From a virus: a DNA stretch of 25,322 bases. Each line of letters begins with the position of its first letter. The first letter of the stretch is position 1. A program made the translations under genes and the position numbers. The notes beneath the pieces were generated by a model. It had not been told where the DNA came from. It saw only the letters and a list, made by a program, of their open reading frames with translations, and made no database searches. Shown one piece after another: positions 1,660-21,744 of this stretch. The stretch lies in IMG/VR virus record IMGVR_UViG_3300036766_002282, positions 1 to 25,322 of that record. One strand, written 5' to 3'.

Positions 1660-3242
1660 TAAGCAAACACGCTCCCCTGTCGAATTCTTTTCTGAGTTAC
1701 TGCAGCAGCTGAGCTCGTAGGCTCCACAATTATCGTTTGCAATGCTTGAAGGACCTGTTTCGAGGCTAGATCAGCGGTTGCCTTGTCCGCGCTGCCTTCA
1801 ATGTTCACAAGCGGCCCCTGAGTAACAAGGTTAACAACGGTAGCCTTTGATTGTCCAGTTGGAAGCGGCCCACCGAAGCCCGTTACACCTACTCCTAAAG
1901 CTCCTGATATCTGAGCCTGCGCATTGAAGTCTTTAATCGCCGCTAGGCCCTTGTTCATGCTGTCTGAAACCATTCCCACCCAGTCACCCATCGTTTTCTG
2001 GCTGCTGTCCGCAGCATTTGCAAGGGCATGCGCAAAACAGACTGAACCTATGAAGTCGCTGATAGCCTTACCAGCGCCGCCCATTGCTCCGCTGACGGCG
2101 TTGACGAAGCCACCTAAAGTATTAGCTACAGCAGAGACAGCGTCGATTATTGGTTTCACAAGGTTGTAGAACCATTGGAAGATACCGCCTAGGATCTGCC
2201 AAGCTGTTTGGAAGCTTCCAACTAAGAAATCTCCAAGAGGCTTCAGCACGCTATTCCAGAGAAAATTGCAAATGTCTGAAACAACTTTAAGGTCTGCAGA
2301 GAAGACAGCTGACAGAAAGCTTCCAAGAGGCTGAAAAACGTTCTGCCACAACCATGTTAGCACTGTAGAAAGAGCCTGCACTTCAACGATCAGGGTTGCT
2401 TCGAGAAAGCTTGCGAGTGGCTGAATAACATTCTGCCAGAACCATGTGAGGCCTACAGTAATCGCTTCAACAGCAACCTTCAAAGCACCCCCCAACACTG
2501 CCCCAATCGCATTGAGAGCGTCTCTGAAGGGCGGGCATGCGTTATAAGCTGCGATTATGATTGCTACCAGTCCGACTGTGGCCAGGCAGATTATAGCTGC
2601 AGGGTTTGCGTCCATAGCAGCGTTCAAGGCCCACTGTATTCCTTCCCAGATGCTCTCCGCGTTTGAAACAGTGTTCACAATGGCGATAAGACTGGGAACA
2701 ACTGTGAGCGCAGCCATCAACATCGAGTTGTTAACGTTGTTCTGAGCCATGCTTGCCCGTTCGTGGGCAACAGTAAGAGCATCCTGCGCAATCGAGAGTT
2801 TGTCCGCAGCGTCTTTAGCCTGCTGAGAGTCAGGACCATATTTCTCGATGGCTGCATTGTAGGCTTCCTGAGCTCTCTGCACGGCCAAGGTGCTACGTTC
2901 AACCATCAGGTGAGCTCTGTCAAGCGCGACTTCGCTGTTCTGTATTCTCTCAAAACTCATGAAAAGAGTCGCGCCGGCAAGGGCGGTGCTGTTCATGGCC
3001 ATCGCGGAGCCTGTGCAGCTGTTATTCGCAGTATCAGTGGCATCTGCCATTCCTTGAGCAGAGGTTCCAACTTGACCATAGTCACTTGCAATCTGAGACG
3101 TCGCGCTGTCCGTCGTGCTCGCAAGTTCTTGCGTGTTTCCCTCGATATCCGTGAAAGTGGTTGAAAGGTTAGAGCCTACACCTTCGATAACGCCTGAAGC
3201 CTCATCATAGCAAACTAGATGGATCTCCACTTCTGAACTCAT
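1659..3242 (-). CDS. Tail tape measure protein
   Basis: 527 residues. It sets tail length and is expelled with the DNA in siphoviruses. Evidence: an Ala/Ser/Thr-rich N-terminus; a predicted coiled coil at about residues 100-170; hydrophobic, membrane-like segments at about 174-192 and 214-233; then four W/F-rich repeats with a period of 30 residues between 265 and 370; and a Gly/Ala-rich tail. It lies directly after the frameshifting tail chaperone, the conserved order in siphoviruses. The start ATG at 3242 is only 6 nt after the stop of the frameshifted chaperone. At about 1.5 angstrom per residue, a tail of roughly 80 nm would be expected; this is an inference from the usual tape-measure rule. 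The protein is short for the family. Confidence 0.88.
   Translation of the reverse strand: MSSEVEIHLVCYDEASGVIEGVGSNLSTTFTDIEGNTQELASTTDSATSQIASDYGQVGTSAQGMADATDTANNSCTGSAMAMNSTALAGATLFMSFERIQNSEVALDRAHLMVERSTLAVQRAQEAYNAAIEKYGPDSQQAKDAADKLSIAQDALTVAHERASMAQNNVNNSMLMAALTVVPSLIAIVNTVSNAESIWEGIQWALNAAMDANPAAIICLATVGLVAIIIAAYNACPPFRDALNAIGAVLGGALKVAVEAITVGLTWFWQNVIQPLASFLEATLIVEVQALSTVLTWLWQNVFQPLGSFLSAVFSADLKVVSDICNFLWNSVLKPLGDFLVGSFQTAWQILGGIFQWFYNLVKPIIDAVSAVANTLGGFVNAVSGAMGGAGKAISDFIGSVCFAHALANAADSSQKTMGDWVGMVSDSMNKGLAAIKDFNAQAQISGALGVGVTGFGGPLPTGQSKATVVNLVTQGPLVNIEGSADKATADLASKQVLQALQTIIVEPTSSAAAVTQKRIRQGSVFA
2133..2450 (-). repeat. Four 30-residue repeats inside the tape measure
   Basis: Within the tape measure, residues 265-280, 295-310, 325-340 and 355-370 align with an exact 30-residue step. 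The units read LTWFWQNVIQPLASFL, LTWLWQNVFQPLGSFL, CNFLWNSVLKPLGDFL and FQWFYNLVKPIIDAVS. The first two are nearly identical and the last is diverged. They share an aromatic pair, a central Pro and an aromatic or aliphatic end. Confidence 0.85.
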
Positions 3243-3248
3243 TTTGGT

Positions 3249-3778
3249 CTAACCTTTCCTGTTGTAAAACCAGCGCGTCCATTCTGTAAGAAACTGGATT
3301 TGTAAGGGAGTCAAGTTCCCAATCTGTTCCAGGGTGTAGCCGTACTCATGCGCTATGAACCCGATTGTTTGGGCTGCTTCGTCGACTTCGACCCATTCTC
3401 CAACGGCTTCTGAGGAAAAAAACCACCCTCTTTCTGCAGCTTCGTCAACAGACGCACAACCACTTCGTAAGGCATTGCTTTTATGTCGTCAACAGTTAAG
3501 CCAGGGTTAGCCGGGGAGAGCATCTTGAAAAGAAGCTGCATACTACGGTCCTTGTTCTCCTTGAAGTTCTCGATGATCTCGTTAAGCTGGCTATAGCTGA
3601 GAAGACTGTACCGTATGAGGCCCAAGTCCTCGTCGTAGATTTCACGGATCTCTCTAGCCTTGTTGACAAGCTGTTTCGGGTTGAAGACCCGGACTCGCTT
3701 CAATTTTTCCTCTTCAAACTCTTTGAGACGGTTCTCCATCTCCGTTGCTTTAGCCCAATCTATCTCGTTTTCACTCAT
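3249..3778 (-). CDS. Tail assembly chaperone, predicted -1 frameshift (gpGT-like) form
   Basis: If ribosomes slip one base back on the T7 run at 3422-3416, reading as T TTT TTT in the incoming frame, translation skips the in-frame stop at 3355-3353 and continues 55 codons to a TAG at 3251-3249. The product would be about 176 residues. The extension starts with SSEAVGEWVEVDEAA and ends TEWTRWFYNRKG. It is acidic and aromatic, has no stop for 165 nt, and ends 6 nt before the tape-measure ATG. This is the classical organisation of the lambda G/GT pair, in which the T extension binds the tail tube. The shift itself has not been demonstrated. Confidence 0.75.
3353..3778 (-). CDS. Tail assembly chaperone, short (gpG-like) form
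   Basis: 141 residues from the ATG at 3778, which has AGGTGA about 6 nt upstream; the longer GTG start at 3787 lies inside that binding site. The protein is helical and charged, with a Glu/Lys-rich N-terminus, followed by an acidic and aliphatic middle and a Pro/Lys-rich end. It sits between the tail tube gene and the tape measure, where tailed viruses encode the G and G-T tail chaperones that coat and keep soluble the tape measure during tail assembly. The reading frame contains a run of seven T residues at 3422-3416, followed by a second open frame (see the long form). Family assignment rests on position plus the frameshift architecture rather than sequence similarity. Confidence 0.8.
   Translation of the reverse strand: MSENEIDWAKATEMENRLKEFEEEKLKRVRVFNPKQLVNKAREIREIYDEDLGLIRYSLLSYSQLNEIIENFKENKDRSMQLLFKMLSPANPGLTVDDIKAMPYEVVVRLLTKLQKEGGFFPQKPLENGSKSTKQPKQSGS
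3416..3422 (-). promoter_or_regulatory. Slippery T7 run for programmed -1 frameshifting
   Basis: On the coding (minus) strand the sequence is GGT TTT TTT CCT, which contains the X XXY YYZ-type heptamer T TTT TTT. It lies at codons 123-124 counted from the GTG at 3787, 20 codons before the zero-frame stop. A short self-complementary stretch (GTCGAAGTCGAC) follows about 30 nt downstream and is at best a weak stimulator. Transcriptional slippage on the homopolymer is an alternative route to the same product. Confidence 0.7.
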
Positions 3779-3800
3779 ACATGTCACCTTGAAATGTTGA

Positions 3801-5978: not shown

Positions 5979-6770
5979 CTATGGGTTCATCAACCCGCCC
6001 TGATAAGTCGGAACATCATCTTTCATCGAAGCCTCCGCAGCTATAACGGGCAAGGTCAAGTTGACAAGCTGCTTCTGCAAATCATCGCTTAAACCCTGAA
6101 TCGTTCTTGCAAGCGCTGCCGCATACGGGGCTGTGCGCGCAACACGCAAATCGCCCAGGAAATAATCGTAGGCCCCGACGAGCGAGCCGCCGCTGCTGAT
6201 CACAAGAGCGCGAAGGCAAGCTAGATCCAAGGCGGCAATCTTCGCGTGTGCATACCGCTGATCAGTCGGGTCCAGGAGGCCGCCGTTAAGCGCTGTGATG
6301 TACGTGTTGGCGTAGTCCACATGAGCCTGAAGCGCTGCTTCACTCAACATCAAACCGTAAACAGTGTAATTTCCCGTCAGAGAATCATACGTCATGTTCA
6401 GGTGAGCTTCCACGTCGCCCACCGCAACGTATCCTGCGGAAGGCGCGGCCACGATTGCAGGGGATGTGAACTCTACGGCGAAATCCTGTGAAACGGGAAA
6501 GGTTTGGTTCGTTCCGTCTGGAAATGTGACCTCAAACTGTGCAGGACACGTTCCAAGATGGTCGGTGTCTCCTTGGATCCAGTCATAGCGCACTACGCCG
6601 CTTGATGGACTGACGATGGTACATGGCTTGTTAATGAGTTGTACGCCGTTCTGGAACATTTGAAAATTGACTGTTGAACCTGTCAGGTCTACCGCTGAAC
6701 CGTCACTGTACTGAAGAGTTGCCAGGATGCTAGGCCTCAAATCCCCCTTAACCATTGAGAAACCTGTCAA
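5979..6770 (-). CDS. Head-tail connector-like protein with BppU-type N-terminal domain
   Basis: About 263 residues from a TTG at 6770; an ATG at 6755 is an alternative. Residues 8-105 (DLRPSILATLQYSDGSAVDL, TGSTVNFQMF, then strands) resemble the N-terminal domain of phage baseplate upper proteins, an Ig-like beta-sandwich that starts with a G-D-x-x-P motif and ends in a strand before position 105. The C-terminal half (about 115-255) is helical and reads like a head-tail adaptor: YVAVGDVEAHL, then repeated Ala/Leu helices containing YANTYITAL and LRALVISSGG. Its place between the capsid block and the tail-completion genes fits a connector. The domain combination is unusual. Both assignments are by pattern and uncertain. 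Confidence 0.6.
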   Translation of the reverse strand: MTGFSMVKGDLRPSILATLQYSDGSAVDLTGSTVNFQMFQNGVQLINKPCTIVSPSSGVVRYDWIQGDTDHLGTCPAQFEVTFPDGTNQTFPVSQDFAVEFTSPAIVAAPSAGYVAVGDVEAHLNMTYDSLTGNYTVYGLMLSEAALQAHVDYANTYITALNGGLLDPTDQRYAHAKIAALDLACLRALVISSGGSLVGAYDYFLGDLRVARTAPYAAALARTIQGLSDDLQKQLVNLTLPVIAAEASMKDDVPTYQGGLMNP

Positions 6771-6930: not shown

Positions 6931-7674
6931 TCATAGTATGTCTGCCTGCGGCTCGTGCTGGGCCATTTCATACCAGGCTACACCGCCGCTTACGGCGCCA
7001 TTGTTACCCAGGCCAGAGTAGTCATTCACCACTGTTCCTACACCTTCGATCATTGGAAGCCAGAGCACCAGGCCACTGCGCACGGGGTCTACCGGGTTTT
7101 GAAGATTCCAGTCCCACTCCGCTGCTGTTAGCCTGCGATTATACACTTTAACAAGAGCCAACTGGCCGTTAAAAGGAAGTTCTAAGGTTCCGCTCCTACT
7201 CCTGATGCCAACCCAAAGGGGTTGCGTATCATAGTTGATTGAGCCTGCCAAAACTTGTGTTGTGATTGTCCTATCTACGACCAACCCCCCTGTTGTGCCA
7301 TCATAGAATCCACCGAGCCTATGCCAGCGCCCGTCAGTTACTTTGGCACCCGTAAGCAGAATGTTGCCGGCAGATGTATATACGATAACATACCCCACTC
7401 CGCTACTATCAATGCGGAGATGCCATGCTCCCGAGTACGACGTTCCATAAGGGTTGAAGAGGGCGCATGGAGCGTTCACCGTATCCGTGCTTTTGACGAA
7501 GACTTCAGCTGAGAAGTTTGCAGGTTTCAATGAGGCGGTATAGGGAATGTTCACGTATTCTGTTATTACCCGATGAAAGGTTAATCCATAGAGAGCTGCG
7601 AGTGATAGAATTGGCAGAGTTTTTGGAATTCTCACGTAAACCCTTTTTGGCTGCGGTAAGAAGGGAAGGCTCAT
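6931..7674 (-). CDS. LamG / concanavalin-like lectin-fold virion protein
   Basis: 247 residues from the ATG at 7674, which overlaps the stop of the propeller gene as ATGA. A hydrophobic N-terminus (LPILSLAALYGLTF) precedes a LamG-type fold: FSAEVFVK, then WHLRIDSSGVGYVIVYTSAG, DGRWHRLGGFYDGTTGGLVV, FNGQLALVKVYNRRLTAAEW and a C-terminal GLVLWLPMIEGVGTVVNDYS. The D-G-x-W-H-x-(L/V)-x-G-x-Y-D-G and F-x-G-x-(L/I)-x-x-V-x-(V/I)-Y-x-R-x-L-(S/T) patterns are diagnostic of laminin-G-like domains. In viruses such domains bind glycans on the host surface or decorate the virion. Glycan binding here is inferred. Confidence 0.85.
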   Translation of the reverse strand: MSLPFLPQPKRVYVRIPKTLPILSLAALYGLTFHRVITEYVNIPYTASLKPANFSAEVFVKSTDTVNAPCALFNPYGTSYSGAWHLRIDSSGVGYVIVYTSAGNILLTGAKVTDGRWHRLGGFYDGTTGGLVVDRTITTQVLAGSINYDTQPLWVGIRSRSGTLELPFNGQLALVKVYNRRLTAAEWDWNLQNPVDPVRSGLVLWLPMIEGVGTVVNDYSGLGNNGAVSGGVAWYEMAQHEPQADIL

Positions 7675-9125
7675 TCGAGCACCGCCCAAGCGCTTACTGT
7701 TGCGGCGACTGAGGGAACGAAGTTGATTGCCATCAGCCGAGCCCCATAAGTCGTCACGTACAGCGTTAAAGTATTCGCGGCGACTGCCATGGAAGCTATT
7801 GTCTTAAAGGCGCTCGCAACCTCATCCCAAGCTTGGATGTTCAGGGTTCCTGTTTGGTTGCTGATGATGTAAAACGTTTTTTTGTCCACGTATGCCCCTG
7901 AAAACCCGGGTGTTGTGCTTCCGACTGAAGTATCTGTTATGCTCTGGGCCGACCACAAATAAAGTGGTACTGGTGGAAGAAACTTGGTCATGTTTGGAAT
8001 GACTTTGTAGATTGTGTCGCTTCCATAATCGCTTATGAGAAGGTTCCCATCAGGAGTACGGTGACAATAGCCGACGTCTTGGAGAAAAGGCGGAGCTCTT
8101 CCCGCACCGTTCCATGTAGTTCCAAACCTGTTTCCGAAGAGTACCGCGAGCTTATCCAGTTTTTCAGCCTTTATGTAGGCGATAATCGCACCAATGTAAG
8201 GTGAGGTTAGCAATGCTATCCTGTTGCTCCAAACATCAACACATTCGAGTGCGTGCGCGCCAAAGGGAACGTATCTTGGAGTTGAAAAGAGAAGAGTGCC
8301 ATCCGCGTTGAGATTGTAGAAGTTGCCCGTGGTCCAGTCAACAATTAAAATGTGGTGCCAGTTATAGAAGTCCGTTACGTCTTGGGATTCGTTGCCTTGA
8401 ATCTTATGAGCATACGTTGGAAAAGACAGGGCAGGAACACAGTTAGTTGACCAGTCTCTCACAAGTGTTTTGGCGGGATAGGCAACTTCGAGAACATGCG
8501 GATAATTAGAACTGTTTCCGAAGACTATTGTATTTTCATCCGTGAATTGAACGCTTGTGGGATAGATGTTTGCGAGTGAAAGGTCCGCGCCTGTTAAGCT
8601 CCACACAATCGCGTTTTGCGGCGTAACCTCTATAATCCTGTTGTTTCCAGTGTCCGCGATTAAAGTGTCCCCGTTGGCGAGCCTGACGGCACTGTAAGGT
8701 TGATTAAGTTGGTTCGCGCCCGACCCTGCAACGCCCGTGGTACCATACTGCCACACTATCGCTTTTGTTTTAGGGTTCACCTCTATGACCCTTTGATTAA
8801 GCATATCGGCTATGAGCCAGTTTCCATTAGCAAGTTCAAACACGTCTCTTGGCCCATTTAAGCCGAGCAAACCGGTGCGGTCTGGGATGCCGATACCGTA
8901 ACTTGCAAGAACAACAGCTCCGCAAGAGAGCCCAGCAAGAGCAGTAATTACATCAGCACTTGTCAAGGCCCTTACTTGCCGAGGGTCAAGAAGATTTCCG
9001 TTTCCATCATCCAGTGCTACAACGTCTTCATATACGGTTTGACCGCTTATCGTAAGCTTTCGTTCTCTTTGGTTCTTACCCGTACTGTCAGGCGGTAATG
9101 TAATTTTATCTTCAGTTCCAGACAA
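7671..9125 (-). CDS. NHL-type beta-propeller virion protein
   Basis: 484 residues from a TTG start with AAGGTGAG about 5 nt upstream. At least two clear NHL repeats occur: residues about 89-125 (GPRDVFELANGNWLIADMLN, then QRVIEVNPKTKAIVWQYG) and about 140-175 (QPYSAVRLANGDTLIADTGN, then NRIIEVTPQ). Degenerate blades follow through about residue 390 (for example GNLLISDYGSDTIYKVIP). The N-terminal 60 residues look like a short stalk, and the C-terminal 90 form a separate beta domain ending VSAWAVLE. NHL propellers bind proteins, RNA or ligands. Between the capsid gene and a LamG gene, a head decoration or host-binding role is likely but inferred. Confidence 0.82.
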   Translation of the reverse strand: MSGTEDKITLPPDSTGKNQRERKLTISGQTVYEDVVALDDGNGNLLDPRQVRALTSADVITALAGLSCGAVVLASYGIGIPDRTGLLGLNGPRDVFELANGNWLIADMLNQRVIEVNPKTKAIVWQYGTTGVAGSGANQLNQPYSAVRLANGDTLIADTGNNRIIEVTPQNAIVWSLTGADLSLANIYPTSVQFTDENTIVFGNSSNYPHVLEVAYPAKTLVRDWSTNCVPALSFPTYAHKIQGNESQDVTDFYNWHHILIVDWTTGNFYNLNADGTLLFSTPRYVPFGAHALECVDVWSNRIALLTSPYIGAIIAYIKAEKLDKLAVLFGNRFGTTWNGAGRAPPFLQDVGYCHRTPDGNLLISDYGSDTIYKVIPNMTKFLPPVPLYLWSAQSITDTSVGSTTPGFSGAYVDKKTFYIISNQTGTLNIQAWDEVASAFKTIASMAVAANTLTLYVTTYGARLMAINFVPSVAATVSAWAVLE

Positions 9126-9215: not shown

Positions 9216-10109
9216 CTAAGTAGTGTTTAATCCTGTTATTTTCACGATTGCTTCTCCGCATGTGACAACTGGCGAGTACCTGGTGGTCAGGGACACGTCA
9301 ACCGCGTCGAACTCCTTTTTGACATCCAGATCCGATAGCAGAGGCCTCTTGATCACGAAAAAGCCTAGGGGCGCGTATGAACCGCTTAGGTTTTGGCCCG
9401 TGCTTAGCAAGTACGCTGTGCCTACAGACACGACGTTGCTCACGTAGAAGTCAAACCCGTACACTTTGCCGATGTTACCTGTTTGCACTACTGGCTCGCC
9501 GTACTGCGCGCTTAGGCTGAAGTTTGGCAGGTACCTCAAGTCTCTGGCGTTAATCGGGTTCACCAGCAGACTGTCAGCCACAAAGTTGTAGCTTCCTATG
9601 ATGGCCTCAGCCTTCAAAATGTCTTTCGTACCCGTCCCGCCTGAAACAGTGAACTCCGTGCCCGTCGCACCCATCGTCATCCCCGTTGCCGTGATGCTGT
9701 TAGCCGCTGCACCGTCAATGCATGTGAGGCAGTCCTTGTCAATCTGGTAGGCTACACGCCTCGCTAGACGTCTCAGCTGCTGCTCAATAACTGGAATGTA
9801 CAGATCTTCAATCTGCTCGCGGGGTACACGTACCCGTTCTCCCTTCTTGTAGGGCGTAACGGTGACGTAGTCAAGCGGTGTGAAATCCATCGGAATCTCG
9901 GTGGCCTCGCCGATTGCGCTGATGCCAATGCTTCTGGACCCTTTCTCTTTGGTGAATGTTGCCGTTCGTCCCGCAACTAACGGAAATTCAGGCAACAGGC
10001 GTTTCACGATGAGGGCTGGCATCGTCAATTCGATGATGTGCTGATGCAACGCTGGATACGCTACTGCTCCAGTGTCCACCCATGTTAAGGCGTCACGAAC
10101 GAAACTCAT
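9216..10109 (-). CDS. Major capsid protein (HK97 fold)
   Basis: 297 residues from an ATG about 10 nt after the decoration gene. Recognisable features of the HK97 fold: an N-terminal helix (about 20-40), an E-loop region around 54-85 (GRTATFTKEKGSRSIGISAI), a spine helix at about 98-125 (VPREQIEDLYIPVIEQQLRR), then the P-domain and A-domain strands with DSLLVNPINARDLRYLPNFS, and a C-terminal YVSNVVSVGTAYLL ... VSLTTRYSPVV. These phrases, and the position downstream of protease, scaffold and decoration genes, support a capsid protein assembled as a T-number icosahedron. It is followed by a U-rich spacer. Confidence 0.9.
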   Translation of the reverse strand: MSFVRDALTWVDTGAVAYPALHQHIIELTMPALIVKRLLPEFPLVAGRTATFTKEKGSRSIGISAIGEATEIPMDFTPLDYVTVTPYKKGERVRVPREQIEDLYIPVIEQQLRRLARRVAYQIDKDCLTCIDGAAANSITATGMTMGATGTEFTVSGGTGTKDILKAEAIIGSYNFVADSLLVNPINARDLRYLPNFSLSAQYGEPVVQTGNIGKVYGFDFYVSNVVSVGTAYLLSTGQNLSGSYAPLGFFVIKRPLLSDLDVKKEFDAVDVSLTTRYSPVVTCGEAIVKITGLNTT

Positions 10110-12505: not shown

Positions 12506-12808
12506 TTAGTTGGCAAGCCATTCACAAAGCGTGAGCAGCCGCTTCAAAACCGCGGCCTTTAGCTTCGCATGACGCCTCCCCTTATCAATGAACATGACGT
12601 ACGTCTCACAATCCTGCGGCATCACAACCCGCATCAACTTGTTGTAACGAAATTTCTTCCTGTCCAATTTACCATAGAAAAACCGTCTAACCCTGCAGAA
12701 GATGCAAGTAAGATGAGGCCTTCGCATCTGATTGCTGTACCCGCACAGCGGGTGACAGGCAAACCTCACTCTCAAGTTCTTCACCCGAGAGCTCAAGTTC
12801 AACCTCAT
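12506..12808 (-). CDS. Small basic protein with zinc-type Cys pairs
   Basis: 100 residues. The start ATG overlaps the portal stop as ATGA. C18-x3-C22 and C35-x2-C38 form two Cys pairs separated by 12 residues, followed by a strongly basic stretch (RRFFYGKLDRKKFRYNK) and a helix at the C-terminus. This could be a zinc-binding nucleic-acid protein. It sits between the portal and the head accessory genes, where head completion factors are coded. No family is recognised. Confidence 0.6.
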   Translation of the reverse strand: MRLNLSSRVKNLRVRFACHPLCGYSNQMRRPHLTCIFCRVRRFFYGKLDRKKFRYNKLMRVVMPQDCETYVMFIDKGRRHAKLKAAVLKRLLTLCEWLAN

Positions 12809-14166
12809 TTTCCGGCCTTGCCCTCCTTAACCATCGTGACAGAGGATCCAGCAGACGCATCACGAACTCCCTGCTCAGGCATCTGCTCCGGATACCCGAG
12901 CTGAGGCCGTGCCTCTTCGAGCGCTACTATTCCCTCTTTAACCAGGTTCGTGATGTACGCCGCCTTGACGTCAAGCGTGGGCTCCCACACGGGCCGCCAT
13001 TTCACATGTGGAATTTCTTGGCCTTCTCCCCACTTATCCCGTATCAGCTGCTTGAACAGACCCGATTCCAAAGTGTCGCCGATGAGCTCCTGGAACATCC
13101 GTTCCTCCGTGACATACTCTTGCATGACGATGTCGGCTGTGGCCCTGTTCGTCTTTTCGCTTTCGCCCATGAAGATTTTCGGAACGCCCAGCACGGCGCA
13201 ACGTTGAGTAGTTAGATAGTTCAGCCACCACTGAATGTTCACTTCTTTCGTCATGCTTTGAACAACGGTGACTTCAACGTCGCCACGGACAAATACGTCT
13301 GTCGCAGGTTTGCGGTCGCGAAAAGCCTCCATGAGACTCTGCAACTGCGGATCTGAAAAGGGCCTCTCCGGCGTGCCAGCTCTGACGACTAGCATAGGCT
13401 TCGTGTAAATATGCATGATAAGCGACATGTCGTCTTCCATCTGGTCGATGAGCGCCTGCACCTTCAACAGCGACCTCAACAGCGACGTGCCATAGCAAGA
13501 CTCGAACCACCAGCTCTTCGCTCCGTAACGGAAATGCACTATGTCATCCGCAACAAAGGCGACTGGGGGAAAGGTTAGCAGTTGAATGTAGCCGAACACG
13601 TTGCCGTACGCGTCCCTGCGCACCCGCATGTGCACTGGATCCAACGGTTTAAGCCAGGCAACTTCGCCTGTCTGCTCATCCCGGCAGATCTCGAGGTAAG
13701 CGTTCCCAAAAACAATCATGTCCGTTCCGATTATTCTCAACGTGCCAAGAATGTTCTGTTCATCAAGCCAATCCATAAGCCACTCGCGAACCTGGTCCTC
13801 GCCGCCTTCCAGTTCGAAACCCTGCGCAATGGCCATGTTCACTCTAACGTCTACGCTGGCTTTGATGTACGGCTTGAAAGTGTAGGATTCCTTGTAAGTG
13901 GGGAGGTCCTCAACGGGAGTTGCGCCCCAGAGCCTTTCCCAGTAGGCCATGTATGGAGGAGTGACGAAGCCGGCGCCAGAGCCCTTAAGCATATACTTGG
14001 TGACGTAGCCCCAGAGCATGTTGTCCTGTTTCCAACTCACAGGAACCTCCTCTTCAAGCTGTTTCCTAGCCACATCAGGAGGAACCTTGCGCTCGGCAAC
14101 AAGTCTGGCAGCGGCCTGCCTAACGCTATTGAAGCCCTTCCGAATTTTCTCAGCGACGAAACTCAT
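12805..14166 (-). CDS. Portal protein
   Basis: 453 residues, typical for HK97/SPP1-class portals. Recognisable phrases: the helical N-terminal part; IGTDMIVFGNAYLEICRD followed by WLKPLDPVHMRVRRDAYGNV, the portal P-L-D-P and D-x-x-G-N-V core; ADDIVHFRYG with CYGTSLLRSLL, the conserved D-x-I-x-H-x-R ... Y-G-x-S motif; and CAVLGVPKIFMGESEKTNR, the G-V-P stretch. It forms the dodecameric ring through which DNA is packaged and ejected. It lies 10 nt downstream of the large terminase and overlaps the next gene. Confidence 0.92.
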   Translation of the reverse strand: MSFVAEKIRKGFNSVRQAAARLVAERKVPPDVARKQLEEEVPVSWKQDNMLWGYVTKYMLKGSGAGFVTPPYMAYWERLWGATPVEDLPTYKESYTFKPYIKASVDVRVNMAIAQGFELEGGEDQVREWLMDWLDEQNILGTLRIIGTDMIVFGNAYLEICRDEQTGEVAWLKPLDPVHMRVRRDAYGNVFGYIQLLTFPPVAFVADDIVHFRYGAKSWWFESCYGTSLLRSLLKVQALIDQMEDDMSLIMHIYTKPMLVVRAGTPERPFSDPQLQSLMEAFRDRKPATDVFVRGDVEVTVVQSMTKEVNIQWWLNYLTTQRCAVLGVPKIFMGESEKTNRATADIVMQEYVTEERMFQELIGDTLESGLFKQLIRDKWGEGQEIPHVKWRPVWEPTLDVKAAYITNLVKEGIVALEEARPQLGYPEQMPEQGVRDASAGSSVTMVKEGKAGK

Positions 14167-14176
14167 TCTTCACATC

Positions 14177-15559
14177 TCAGTGTGGAAGCATGACGGCGCC
14201 CCTTCCAGGCAACGGGCTCTGGACAGAAGCGTACACGGCCAAGGCCGCGCTCCAGAAGACGTCGTCGTGGCCGCCCTCCGGGTGACTGAACCGAAGGTGC
14301 CCTGTCTTCATCAACTCATATTTTTCAATGTTAAGTTCAGCCGTCAAGTCGACGTCTTCAAGCTTTCTCGCGGGCACGTATGGAATCTTCACTTCGCTCC
14401 CGCGCATCTTCTCCCGCAGAATCGTGGCCATCTCCTCCTTCGATTGCACCGTGAACGTCACGCCGGTCACGCCTTGGATTCCGCTGCGAACCATGTCCTC
14501 AACAATGTAGTTTCCGACACCTGTGACGTCAGCGTAAACGGCGCGCACTGATGGCCAGCGGTCCTGAAGACTCTTCACGTAGCCGATTACCGAGGCGTAC
14601 TCGGTTTTCAACGGAAACCTGTGCACGTGCACGATGCGCAGGGCCCCGCCGCTCTTGTCCGCAACCAGGACAACGCTGAAATCTTGTTCCTTGCCGAAGT
14701 CGATGCCAACGTAAAACTCGCCCTGGGGCACTTCTTGAAAATCGTAGGGCTGCAAGTTACTCTCAATGCAGCTGACAATCAAACTCTGTGTCAGCCACGC
14801 GTCCACGTCTTCAACGAACTCTGACATGAACTCGCGTTGAAAACGTTCGAAAGGCAGTTGACTTTTCATTTCATCTATGAAACTCTGCTTTACGAGGCCG
14901 GTGCGTACAACGTCCTCGCATGTGACGACGTGCCTGCTGAAGTCGCTGCTCTGGCACATCCGATAAAACACGCTGTCCCTGTTCCAGGGCGTGCTTGACG
15001 CGATGAGCGCACCGTCAGTGGTACTGAGCATCGGATACAATACGTTGTAAAACACCAAGTCATCGTCCTTGAAAAAGTTAGCTTCATCAGCAAGAACCTG
15101 ATTTGCAGTGTACCCACGCAGCAGCTGAGGACTGTTAGGCAACGCCACGATGCGACTGCCGTTCTTGAAGCGGACCGTAGCTCTCTGCAACTTTTCAATT
15201 ATCTGCACGTGTCTATCCTTGGGCAAGCTTGCAAGAAAATCCTGAATCCGATCGCTCATAATCATTGATTGCCGCAGTGACGGTGCCACAATCAACGTCA
15301 AAGTTTTCGGGTGCACAATCGCAAACCAAATCGCCCTCAAAGCGATACAAGTGGTCTTACCAGACTGCCGGCTCCACCTGACAACAATACGCTTGGAAGC
15401 ATCCCGCAAAAGCTTCGCCTGGTACTCATTACACTTAAACCCGAAGAGAGAAAGTGCAAACGTCACTGGATCCAGAGGGAGCTCAGCCATTTGACTTTTC
15501 AGGCGCGCTTCCAACTGCTCCTTCAACCGTTTCAGCTTGGCCTTTTGGGCTTGCTTCAT
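14177..15559 (-). CDS. terL: Terminase large subunit (ATPase-nuclease)
   Basis: 460 residues. Walker A is RWSRQSGKTT (about 61-70), Walker B is VLADEA (155-160) and the coupling motif is ALIASSTP (184-191). The nuclease domain follows: YVGIDFGKEQDFS with D287, AVYADVTGVG with D344, and a terminal GGHDDVFWSAALAVYA that supplies the third acidic cluster. All motifs expected of a packaging motor with headful or site-specific cleavage are present, so the enzyme should be active. It overlaps the small-terminase-like gene by 77 nt and is followed by the portal gene 10 nt later, the standard order. Confidence 0.95.
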   Translation of the reverse strand: MKQAQKAKLKRLKEQLEARLKSQMAELPLDPVTFALSLFGFKCNEYQAKLLRDASKRIVVRWSRQSGKTTCIALRAIWFAIVHPKTLTLIVAPSLRQSMIMSDRIQDFLASLPKDRHVQIIEKLQRATVRFKNGSRIVALPNSPQLLRGYTANQVLADEANFFKDDDLVFYNVLYPMLSTTDGALIASSTPWNRDSVFYRMCQSSDFSRHVVTCEDVVRTGLVKQSFIDEMKSQLPFERFQREFMSEFVEDVDAWLTQSLIVSCIESNLQPYDFQEVPQGEFYVGIDFGKEQDFSVVLVADKSGGALRIVHVHRFPLKTEYASVIGYVKSLQDRWPSVRAVYADVTGVGNYIVEDMVRSGIQGVTGVTFTVQSKEEMATILREKMRGSEVKIPYVPARKLEDVDLTAELNIEKYELMKTGHLRFSHPEGGHDDVFWSAALAVYASVQSPLPGRGAVMLPH

Positions 15560-17946: not shown

Positions 17947-18311
17947 CTAACCTAATGCGCTATGAAGTGCTTTTATTCTTGCAATGGCAATTCTTGCCCG
18001 CTCTAGAAGATCATCAAAAGTCATCACACTTATTGATGAATACAGCTGATTCACTCTGTTGAGCTCTTCACGGAATCTTGCGTTTGAACCGAATTTCTGT
18101 GAATGTTCTCTGCCAATTATTATAAGACTGCGATGATTTCTTATGCTAGGAAATTCTTGAAGGTAATCTCCAAAGCGCCGGATTATTTCGTCCCACACTG
18201 ATACTTGGTTTACTGCTTGTGTCAGTTGATATGACGGGCGAGCATCGTCACCAACAAGGATGGGCTTTGACGGTCGCTCCACTTCTACCAACATATAAGT
18301 ATTATCACGAT
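17947..18311 (-). pseudogene. Shedu (SduA, DUF4263) nuclease C-terminal fragment
   Basis: An ORF of 115 residues from an ATG at 18294, with the frame open to the inverted repeat at 18312. The sequence YMLVEVERPSKPIL, then SYQLTQAVNQVSVWDEI, then RNHRSLIIIGREHS, then NRVNQLYSSISVMTFDDLL follows the Shedu nuclease core: the E-x-E-R-P catalytic strand, the Gln of the Q-V helix, the I-I-G-R strand and the T-x-D-D-L end. Full SduA proteins are about 350-400 residues, so the N-terminal sensing half is absent here. The break falls at the 52-bp repeat. The remnant is probably inactive, or was part of a longer gene before rearrangement. Confidence 0.7.
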
Positions 18312-18370: not shown

Positions 18371-19777
18371 TCAGGACATAAAACCCAGTGATTTGACAAA
18401 TTCAGTCTTTGAGAGTTCTACGTTTTCCAAGTATTCTTTTTTGGCTGTGAGGGATTTGTTTTCATGGTTGTAGGCTGAATCTGCAAACTTCTTCTGGTCT
18501 TGTGAGGATTTGGGAAAAACTATGACTACGTCTTGAATGTAATCCTCGTTTAACTCTGTTTGTCCAGTGCTTCCGACAGTAAATCTGTTGAACTGTTTTT
18601 GTGCGAAAGAAGACCGCAAATAGAAATTCATGTAAAATGGATCAAGTTCATGTTTTTTCTCATCCATAATTCTAAGAACAGTCACATGACCATCTGATAC
18701 ACATTCAGTTTCTTTATCGAGCATGTCTACTCTTCCGATTGTGCCATCTCCAGTAGATGTGAGAAGTACATCATTCTTTTTCAGATGAAGGTCAGGGTTT
18801 CTATCAAAAAAAGGACGGAGAACAAAATCGGTATCCCAATCTATTCCTTCACCTGTCACATTTCGTAGCTTTATGATTGGAACCCCAACTGAAACATAAA
18901 TCTTCGCAGTTTTCCCTCTAAAAACCTGACACAAAATTCCTAGAGTTTCCTTTACATAACCTTCTCTCTCAAGATGTTCGATTTCCTTCTGTAGTCGAGA
19001 ATGGAGTGGATTATGGTATTCAAAGTCGAATCGTCGCTCGTCTATACTGAGTGTCTTGAGATAGAACTTCTTTGTTTCAAACTTACTTGATTCAGGCACA
19101 AGATTGATCTTCGCTTCAATCTTCTCTGTCGCATATTCTTCTCTTTTCTGAAGGGCTTTGGTCATGCATTCATCCGCGATCTTGACTTTCTGAAGTTGTT
19201 CATCCTTGTTTTCTGGATAGATGATTAGAAACTTGTCAATGTTCTTCAGGTGAGTCTGTCCAGTGCTTCCAACTGTAAATCTGTCAAACTGCATCCGTCC
19301 AAAGACCGAACGCAGATAATGCAGAAGGTATGAAGGATGTATTTTCTGACTAGCTCGCAATGCCACGACATCTACCGCTATCATGGCTCCTTCGCGATCA
19401 ACCATGTCCGACCTTCCAATAGTCCCATCGCCCGTAGCAGTCACTAATACATCATCCATTTCAACATGACATTCAGGGTTCTCATCGTAGAACTGTCGTA
19501 TGACGAAGTCCGAGTTCCAATTCAAACCTTCATTTGTCACATTTCGAAGTTTGATTATTGGAACACCCGTGCTTACGTATTCTTCACTTGTCTTTCCATT
19601 AAAGATGCGAGAACATACGTCACTCAAACAATCGACTCTATACTTCTTCTCTTTTGCGAGACTTCTGAGCTTCGTTTCCATTCTCTCGTGTCGAGGGTCT
19701 AACCATTCAAAGTCTATTCGCGGCATGTCGGTTGATAGAACATGAAGGCTAAACCTCGATTTTTGCGTCCAGCTCAT
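18371..19777 (-). CDS. hsdS: Type I-like restriction specificity subunit (HsdS)
   Basis: 468 residues from the ATG at 19777, which overlaps the methylase stop as ATGA. The protein is a tandem duplication: each half has a lead-in (LSTDMPRIDFEW / LSIDERRFDFEY), then VSTGVPIIKLRNVT / VSVGVPIIKLRNVT, a TGDGTIGR motif, and FDRFTVGSTGQT / FNRFTVGSTGQT. Spacer helices (about 200-235 and at the C-terminus) separate the halves. The TIGR-type, VGSTGQT and VPIIKLRN phrases are typical of HsdS target recognition domains, which read the DNA target for the methylase. Unlike most HsdS proteins, the two halves are very similar. Confidence 0.9.
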   Translation of the reverse strand: MSWTQKSRFSLHVLSTDMPRIDFEWLDPRHERMETKLRSLAKEKKYRVDCLSDVCSRIFNGKTSEEYVSTGVPIIKLRNVTNEGLNWNSDFVIRQFYDENPECHVEMDDVLVTATGDGTIGRSDMVDREGAMIAVDVVALRASQKIHPSYLLHYLRSVFGRMQFDRFTVGSTGQTHLKNIDKFLIIYPENKDEQLQKVKIADECMTKALQKREEYATEKIEAKINLVPESSKFETKKFYLKTLSIDERRFDFEYHNPLHSRLQKEIEHLEREGYVKETLGILCQVFRGKTAKIYVSVGVPIIKLRNVTGEGIDWDTDFVLRPFFDRNPDLHLKKNDVLLTSTGDGTIGRVDMLDKETECVSDGHVTVLRIMDEKKHELDPFYMNFYLRSSFAQKQFNRFTVGSTGQTELNEDYIQDVVIVFPKSSQDQKKFADSAYNHENKSLTAKKEYLENVELSKTEFVKSLGFMS

Positions 19778-21744
19778 AGCTTTCCACTGGTTTGAAATTC
19801 CTTCCATTTCTTGAGAACTACAGGTTCTAAGTCGCTTCTGGACGGGTCGAGTTTCTGAACATTATCAGGATCAAACCCAGTGTTCTCGCTCATACCATAG
19901 AATGTGGCTGGTTGCCCTTCTTTCGAAGTTTGCTTTTTGGCAAGGTAAAGAATTGATGTCTTGACATTTGCGCCAGCTCTGCGAAACGTCATTCGTGGCA
20001 GAGAGATTATGGCTTTGACAAGAAAATTCTCAAAAATGAAATCTCTCGCTGGCTTGTCCGTATCTGTATTGAGTACGCTTTCATCTATGACAGTTATAAG
20101 TTTGCCATCTTCGGCTAAGAGTTCATGATAGCGTTCAAGAAACATAACGTTCGATTCTAGAGAAGATCGCAGCTTTCGGGTTTTTTTCTTTGTCAAGTAA
20201 TATGCGAGATTGTATTTTTCCAGAATAGTCTTTGCGTCTTTTTCGCGAGCCTTTTTTGGCATGGCAAAGGGCGGATTAGTCAGGATAACATTGAACTTCA
20301 CATTCCGTAACAATTCTCGTAGTTCTTCTCTTTCTGCCTTCACTTCAGGCGTGAGCGTATCTTCTATTTTGACATCTTTGTCTAGTGCATCTGCGAAATA
20401 GACACGGCTACCGCCGTCTTCATGGAGATACATGTTGATTCTTGCTATCTGTGCCATACGTGGCTCTTGGCCTATGTCAATTCCGACGAGCCGATTGTCT
20501 CGAATCTCCTTTATCAACTCCTCCTTCTGCTTGTCGTTTAGGTTTTGCCTATGCCTAACTTGTCTCGCCATCTCCGTCATCGCTTCGATAAGGAAGCCGC
20601 CAGTTCCGCAACATCCATCCAACACCCGATCTATGCGTTTCTCATCAGCCTGCAAGTCTGCAAGTTTTGTCATAAATTCAACTACTGTTCGTGGAGTGAA
20701 GAATTGTCCAAGTTTTTCTCCACGCATGGTGGCACTAAGAAAAGTTTCGAATAAGCGACCATTCAAATCCTCATCAATTCCAAAAAGGTCAAGATGTTCC
20801 AGCAACTTGACTATCTCTTTTACCGTGTCGGGCTTTAGCTTGATATTTTCATTATCATCGAAGATACGCTTCTTCTTTTTGTTGATGATTTCTAGTTCCA
20901 ACAGTTCCCTTAACTGCTTGAAGAGTATGGTGTTGACAGGATGAGGTTCAGAATCTTCATTCTGGACTATCCAGTGGATTGAGAATCTCACTTTTTCGCG
21001 GGGTAGTGGCTTACCTGCTTCGATTAGCTTCTCGATGTCGGGGTCAGTGCGTAACCTCTTGTCTTCATTTAACTTGACAAACATGACTTTAGTGAACTCA
21101 TAAAAGGCTCCTTCTTGTCCAATTGCGTCTCTTCTCCTGATTATGTCGTGGCATGCTTCAAAGATGCCTGTCACTTCTGACATTTTTGGGGGTTTATGAA
21201 ATTCAAAAGGTTCTGAACCTGAAAAAACGGATTTCGAAAGAGCTGACCTTGAAAAAGTGGTTTTGAATGATTCAAACTTGGGTTTGCCATCTTGGAAATC
21301 GGAGAATTGAAGGTCTTGCTCTGTCTTGTTGCTGTCATAGTGTTTGATTATCGTTCTAACGCCATTACAGCCTATGCAATGCTGCACTGGTTTTGGTTCA
21401 TCAAGTGCCCTGCGAATTACGGCAGTGTAGAGTTGAGCATCTTCAACTCCCTCTTCTGCGTTCTCTGTTGGACTCTTTGCATCCACAATCAGTACAGGTC
21501 TGTTGTGAGCCTTGTCGGAATAGCATACATAGTCAGGTTTGTACACTCTTTTTTTCTTGCCCTTGCCAATATTCTTCTCTGGGAGTCTTTCAGTTTCTCT
21601 ATAATCCTCTGTGAAGCCTAACTCGTCCAAGAGTGGAGCAAGAAACAACTCACGGACATCAGTTTCATTTTTCAGGTTTTTCAGATTGCAGTACTTGTTT
21701 TTCAGGTCTTCCCCGAACTGCTCTAGAGCCAACTCTATTCCCAT
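19774..21744 (-). CDS. hsdM: Methyltransferase with N-terminal nuclease-like domain (HsdM-type fusion)
   Basis: 656 residues. Residues 30-110 form an HsdR-N-like PD-(D/E)XK domain: KPDYVCYSDKAHNRPVLIVDAKSP region with Asp71, Asp88 and Lys90, and a following QLYTAV helix. The rest is an N6-adenine methylase: LGQFFTPRTVVEFM (about 345-358), SAM motif I DGCCGTGGF (376-384), catalytic NPPF (490-493). No helicase domain is present here or nearby. Together with the specificity subunit it should methylate adenine at a bipartite target. The fused nuclease might cut unmethylated DNA without ATP-driven translocation, or act as a modification-linked sensor; this is inferred. Confidence 0.9.
   Translation of the reverse strand: MGIELALEQFGEDLKNKYCNLKNLKNETDVRELFLAPLLDELGFTEDYRETERLPEKNIGKGKKKRVYKPDYVCYSDKAHNRPVLIVDAKSPTENAEEGVEDAQLYTAVIRRALDEPKPVQHCIGCNGVRTIIKHYDSNKTEQDLQFSDFQDGKPKFESFKTTFSRSALSKSVFSGSEPFEFHKPPKMSEVTGIFEACHDIIRRRDAIGQEGAFYEFTKVMFVKLNEDKRLRTDPDIEKLIEAGKPLPREKVRFSIHWIVQNEDSEPHPVNTILFKQLRELLELEIINKKKKRIFDDNENIKLKPDTVKEIVKLLEHLDLFGIDEDLNGRLFETFLSATMRGEKLGQFFTPRTVVEFMTKLADLQADEKRIDRVLDGCCGTGGFLIEAMTEMARQVRHRQNLNDKQKEELIKEIRDNRLVGIDIGQEPRMAQIARINMYLHEDGGSRVYFADALDKDVKIEDTLTPEVKAEREELRELLRNVKFNVILTNPPFAMPKKAREKDAKTILEKYNLAYYLTKKKTRKLRSSLESNVMFLERYHELLAEDGKLITVIDESVLNTDTDKPARDFIFENFLVKAIISLPRMTFRRAGANVKTSILYLAKKQTSKEGQPATFYGMSENTGFDPDNVQKLDPSRSDLEPVVLKKWKEFQTSGKL

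Follow-up and report, generated by a model that had tools for sequence, protein, structure and literature searches.

The slip site at which phage lambda shifts from G to the G-T fusion of its tail assembly chaperone is G GGA AAG. In the assembly of the lambda tail, the T part of the fusion brings tube subunits to a tape measure protein that is coated with G (reviewed in PMC5009743). The same -1 G/GT device has been reported for the haloarchaeal siphoviruses HVTV-1 and HCTV-1, -2 and -5 (PMC8211752, PMC5009743) and for Hardycor1 (PMC7911831), and a +1 variant has been reported for HSTV-2 and perhaps for the HF1 group (PMC7230728). A cellular case is the fucA1 gene of Sulfolobus, in which a -1 shift on A-AAA-AAT was shown by in vitro translation (PMC8211752). 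Reported archaeal -1 cases are few; besides this enzyme gene and the tail genes of a few haloviruses, they include a shift predicted for a magnesium chelatase. Frameshifting and tail chaperones are unmentioned in the paper on the Bathyarchaeia viruses Fuxiviridae and Kunpengviridae (PMC10848311), and a full-text search of the literature that combined frameshift, Bathyarchaeia, virus and tail returned two reviews, the retrieved portions of which contain no such case.

The window analysed here is a stretch of 25,322 nucleotides, an IMG/VR virus record that carries hallmark genes of the Caudoviricetes (terminase, portal, capsid and tape measure). In it, two overlapping open reading frames (ORFs) are flanked by the genes for the tail tube and the tape measure protein. 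We consider it highly probable (about 0.93) that they form the tail assembly chaperone gene of a Caudoviricetes virus of Bathyarchaeia, which makes G and, by a -1 slip, a G-T fusion.

Organization of the chaperone locus

The whole chaperone feature lies on the minus strand (Table 1). The first-pass annotation had described a T TTT TTT heptamer 20 codons ahead of the chaperone stop and a 55-codon -1 extension ending 6 nt before the tape-measure ATG. Both descriptions are exact on the minus-strand coordinates: 20 sense codons lie between the heptamer and the zero-frame stop, and the ATG at 3242 comes six bases past the extension's stop at 3251-3249. From stop to stop the chaperone ORF spans 3802-3353, with the ATG at 3778 as the more likely start and a GTG at 3787 as an alternative. 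Reading in the -1 frame can run without interruption from 3488 down to its stop, and the extension holds a conserved core, IGFIAHEYGYTL..IG.LTPFQ..FL. The site is more than would be expected by chance: the other late genes, which amount to 4,368 codons, contain nine in-frame heptamers of the form X XXY YYZ, and T TTT TTN is not among them.

Table 1. Positions of the chaperone locus and of other features in the window
Feature	Position	Strand	Basis and remarks
Tape measure protein, 527 aa	1659..3242	-	Matches to tail length tape measure families of PHROGs, of which phrog_4197 scores best (5.2e-13)
-1 frame extension (gpT-like domain)	3249..3416	-	55 codons + stop 3251-3249
Zero-frame stop codon, ends short product	3353..3355	-	ORF reading
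Zero-frame tail assembly chaperone (predicted, gpG-like)	3356..3778	-	141 aa from ATG 3778; ORF, homologous loci and predicted fold
Slippery heptamer T TTT TTT	3416..3422	-	A7 on the plus strand; read GGT-TTT-TTT
Tail tube (major tail) protein, 129 aa	3844..4233	-	AlphaFold model; directly upstream of the chaperone
BppU_N-like gene	5979..6770	-	1.3e-6
LamG/concanavalin-like lectin gene	6931..7689	-	7.1e-16
484-aa gene	7671..9125	-	
Major capsid protein	9216..10109	-	Pfam Phage_capsid_4 3e-9; PHROGs major head protein 1.6e-15
Portal protein	12805..14166	-	Pfam Phage_portal 3.6e-13
Large terminase	14177..15559	-	Pfam Terminase_6N 2.5e-12; served for finding relatives and host
115-aa ORF, SduA-like	17947..18294	-	Matches SduA (DUF4263) defence proteins in their C-terminal part, PADLOC 2.8e-14
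Type I restriction-modification specificity subunit	18371..19807	-	Methylase_S 9.4e-15
Type I restriction-modification methyltransferase subunit	19774..21744	-	N6_Mtase 1.6e-30

The resemblance to the lambda G/GT arrangement that had been pointed out holds for gene order, which is tube, chaperone and tape measure in both viruses. The locus differs from that of lambda in its slip site, in its archaeal host and in sequence, as neither half of the chaperone gave a significant match in PHROGs or INPHARED (tblastn). The top PHROGs match of the tape measure gene is a family named endolysin (phrog_971, 7.3e-29). The model of the tail tube protein, of modest confidence (pLDDT 66), is a beta sandwich with a helix; both Foldseek (E 1.1e-5) and VIA (Z up to 8.5) match it to Hcp and to the tail tube proteins of phages. 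In about 110 loci a homologue of this protein precedes the chaperone.

Elsewhere in the window, the BppU_N-like gene, the lectin gene and a 484-aa gene with no Pfam match lie between the capsid and tail genes. The record also encodes specificity and methyltransferase subunits of a type I restriction-modification system, and no nuclease subunit of such a system was identified on it. Beside them lies the SduA-like ORF, which looks like a fragment.

The identification of the zero-frame product as a tail chaperone draws on a structure model built from 14 sequences (mean pLDDT 74.5), which is folded to about residue 118 and in which the zero-frame residues past the slip point are disordered. Structural comparison with VIA placed the HK97 tail assembly chaperone (2ob9, Z 6.8), 3klu (Bacillus YqbN, Z 6.3) and 3fgx (Z 5.5) in the top three rows, with the next row at 2.5. 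For a single match taken alone, a Z of 6.8 does not reach the level at which it can be relied on, and identity to the three structures is 10-12% over the aligned residues. With Foldseek the model had no significant match in PDB or BFVD, several named tail assembly chaperones of BFVD appearing at E 0.14-0.43. Because the top structural rows agree with the position of the gene between tube and tape measure, we accept the predicted gpG-like fold, and the earlier naming of the gene as a tail chaperone is supported by the model.

Conservation among relatives

Relatives were collected by two scans. The terminase scan gave 67 viral loci, 48 of whose records were searched with the chaperone; 25 had a homologue. 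Records with no match were not taken as absences, as many of them stop short of the tail genes, and in distant terminase relatives the chaperone may have diverged beyond detection. The other scan, for which an alignment of just the extension (A3) served as query, gave 80 loci. Seven further copies came from Bathyarchaeota genome bins, bringing the total to 113 loci with the window included; some records are in both scans, so that the count that matters is that of distinct sequences, namely 82 DNA sequences falling into 25 clusters at 70% and 19 clusters at 60% protein identity.

Each of the 113 loci (82 distinct) has a -1 extension, and where the two frames overlap each has an in-frame heptamer of the type X XXY YYZ. 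In the first set, an open -1 extension with the conserved sequence and an in-frame heptamer were found in 25 of 25, and every one of the 80 loci from the extension-only scan has a zero-frame chaperone ORF upstream, a -1 extension and a heptamer in the overlap. Relatives that lack both the T-run and the open -1 frame, a case raised by the first-pass annotation, were thus not encountered. The comparison of homologues that it proposed bore out the conservation of heptamer and extension, while the T7 run itself is not conserved. An arrangement fused in frame, or one needing a +1 shift, was found in none of the 113 loci.

These counts also bear on the concern, likewise raised at the outset, that a sequencing error hides a single ORF, and on the related readings of an assembly error or of a former single ORF in decay. 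Artefacts at homopolymers are common, and degraded copies of the chaperone do exist in host genomes. However, the same break recurs with differing heptamers in 113 loci, which come from numerous metagenomes and genome assemblies, and no in-frame fused version is among the loci examined; this contradicts such an error and leaves these explanations a negligible chance.

Translation of the extension

The pattern of sequence differences indicates that the extension is translated. Upstream, in the zero frame, the ten sequences of the closest group differ by 0.21/0.17/0.48 at the three codon positions. In the overlap the profile is even (0.25/0.22/0.30), as expected where two frames are read, and past the zero-frame stop it becomes 0.21/0.14/0.44 in the -1 frame. 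Two other groups have the same tendency. Since variation beyond the zero-frame stop concentrates at the third positions of the -1 frame, we conclude on this comparative evidence that the extension is translated. Together with the presence of heptamer and extension throughout the family, this supports the programmed -1 frameshift that had been suggested.

A frame that stays open and conserved beyond the zero-frame stop could also be a separate gene, whose translation starts independently or is coupled to termination at the chaperone stop, with the heptamer being incidental. However, in the stretch of the -1 frame that leads from the preceding in-frame stop to the conserved core, none of the 82 sequences has an ATG, and in 77 of them ATG, GTG and TTG are all absent. 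In many loci that preceding stop is no more than one or two codons away from the heptamer. Moreover, alignable -1-frame sequence begins at the heptamer, and no locus lacks a heptamer. A separate gene is thus extremely improbable. As the extension has no start codon of its own, separate initiation is unlikely, and fusion to the upstream protein would be the simple reading. The predicted junction peptide of the G-T fusion is EGGFFSSEAVGEW.

Slip-site variants

The 82 distinct slip sites are TTTTTTA (26), TTTTTTT (20), TTTTTTC (14), TTTTTTG (13), GGGTTTT alone (7), AAATTTT alone (1) and TTTCCCT (1), the last being a single weak case (L189). A UUU codon is present in 81 of them. In every T-type site the codon preceding TTT TTN ends in T, against a background in these genes in which 18% of glycines are encoded by GGT and 22% of serines by AGT. 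Taken together, the two synonymous preferences (a preceding codon ending in T, and Phe as TTT) have a joint probability of about 1e-20, a rough figure computed from one sequence per 70% cluster with the clusters treated as independent.

The variants help to decide between the two kinds of slippage, ribosomal and transcriptional, that the first-pass annotation had held possible. In transcriptional slippage the polymerase would stutter on the T7 run, so that some mRNAs have an altered number of U and the frames are fused. Homopolymer runs can be slippery for polymerases, and a seven-T run is present in the window and its closest relatives (20 of the 82 sequences). On the other hand, 51 sequences have six T only, and in others the T-run is replaced by G GGT TTT (7 sequences) or A AAT TTT (1 sequence), the longest T run in these loci being four. 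The T that precedes TTT TTN in every T-type site also matches what tandem tRNA slippage requires. Transcriptional slippage as the source of the fusion is therefore very unlikely. Because what the family keeps is a tandem-slippage heptamer and not a homopolymer, the comparison favours ribosomal slippage, so that the ribosomal half of the original suggestion stands and the transcriptional half is disfavoured. In the T7 loci, polymerase slippage could add to ribosomal slippage.

Tandem heptamers one codon apart occur in 26 of the 82 sequences (for example L159, L161 and L190), where G GGT TTT overlaps T TTT TTN (20 sequences) or A AAT TTT overlaps T TTT TTC (6 sequences); some relatives retain only one of the two (compare L146-L151 with L159-L163). 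In one cluster, members with GGT-TTT-TTA stand beside members with ATG-GGT-TTT, and it looks as though the slip site has moved by one codon within the cluster.

No downstream stimulatory RNA structure was detected in 60-nt windows at 16 offsets in the 82 sequences (mean z -0.3 to +0.33), and Shine-Dalgarno-like elements upstream of the slip site had no clear enrichment (17 of 82 observed, about 12 expected). Since neither element emerged from the comparison, no stimulator was identified. Rfam gave no match in the window. As nearly all sites contain a UUU codon, while neither an RNA structure after the site nor a Shine-Dalgarno-like element before it was detected, one can speculate, in what is a doubtful proposal, that the ratio of G to GT depends on the tRNA-Phe of the host, for example on a wyosine-type modification at position 37, in place of an mRNA stimulator. 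The double sites G GGT TTT TTN and A AAT TTT TTC would then be intermediates in an evolutionary migration of the slip site by one codon.

Host of the virus

When the terminase profile was run against 84,980 species genomes, 14 loci were found. Thirteen of them belong to 11 Bathyarchaeota genomes, which stem from several independent studies, and the remaining one is in a Diapherotrites genome (31% identity). Three of the 11 genomes, the bins bog_991, bog_990 and PFL2, also contain intact chaperone homologues with the -1 extension. An intact copy on a 77 kb contig and a degraded copy on a 195 kb contig have cellular genes beside them; these genes are not diagnostic of archaea, and the assignment rests on the agreement of the bins. 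It is thus most likely, judging from metagenome bins, that the virus infects Bathyarchaeia archaea, and the terminase relatives uphold the original description of an archaeal virus.

The alternative is a bacterial host, with the Bathyarchaeota genomes containing mis-binned viral contigs. The use of metagenome bins for host inference leaves room for it, and the terminase matches to isolated phages, which are distant, are mostly to phages of bacteria. Yet mis-binning would have to account for Bathyarchaeota in 13 of 14 loci among so many species genomes and across independent studies, as well as for chaperone copies on the two contigs with cellular genes, and we regard a bacterial host as highly improbable.

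Three chaperone copies in Bathyarchaeota genomes (L118, L121 and L122) are degraded by stops or truncation, which suggests that they are decayed proviruses. The bog_991 genome has eight chaperone matches, several of them full-length.

Discussion

By analogy with lambda, a model for the function of this locus can be proposed. Most ribosomes would stop at 3353 and release the 141-aa G-like protein. A minority would slip back by one base on T TTT TTT, where the tRNA-Phe molecules in the P and A sites re-pair in the -1 frame, and would go on to read 55 more codons, thus making the G-T fusion. As in lambda, the G part would coat the tape measure protein, the T part would recruit tail tube subunits to the G-coated tape measure, and the ratio of G to GT would set up tail assembly. 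We infer slippage in vivo, and likewise its efficiency and the contact between T and the tube.

The -1 G/GT device is already known in haloarchaeal tailed viruses. HVTV-1, HCTV-1, -2 and -5 and Hardycor1 have the same device in archaeal tailed viruses, and there too it is predicted from sequence. The present set differs from theirs in the UUU codon that is found in 81 of 82 sites and in its hosts, which are Bathyarchaeia (Thermoproteota) and not halophiles. The fucA1 gene of Sulfolobus is likewise a case of an archaeal -1 shift on a homopolymer-like heptamer. However, fucA1 is a cellular enzyme gene that is split in few strains, whereas the gene described here is a viral structural gene that is split in all relatives examined. 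What is new is a set of Bathyarchaeia viruses for which the comparative support is unusually strong.

For the annotation of these genomes, the finding supplies the T part of the chaperone, which standard gene callers miss. To the few archaeal -1 cases it adds a large set, strictly conserved and with natural variants of the slip site, from viruses of the Bathyarchaeia, a lineage abundant in sediments. These variants are ready substrates for testing how archaeal ribosomes slip on U-rich sites. As far as sequence comparison can tell, control of tail assembly of the lambda type would persist in the viruses of Bathyarchaeia.
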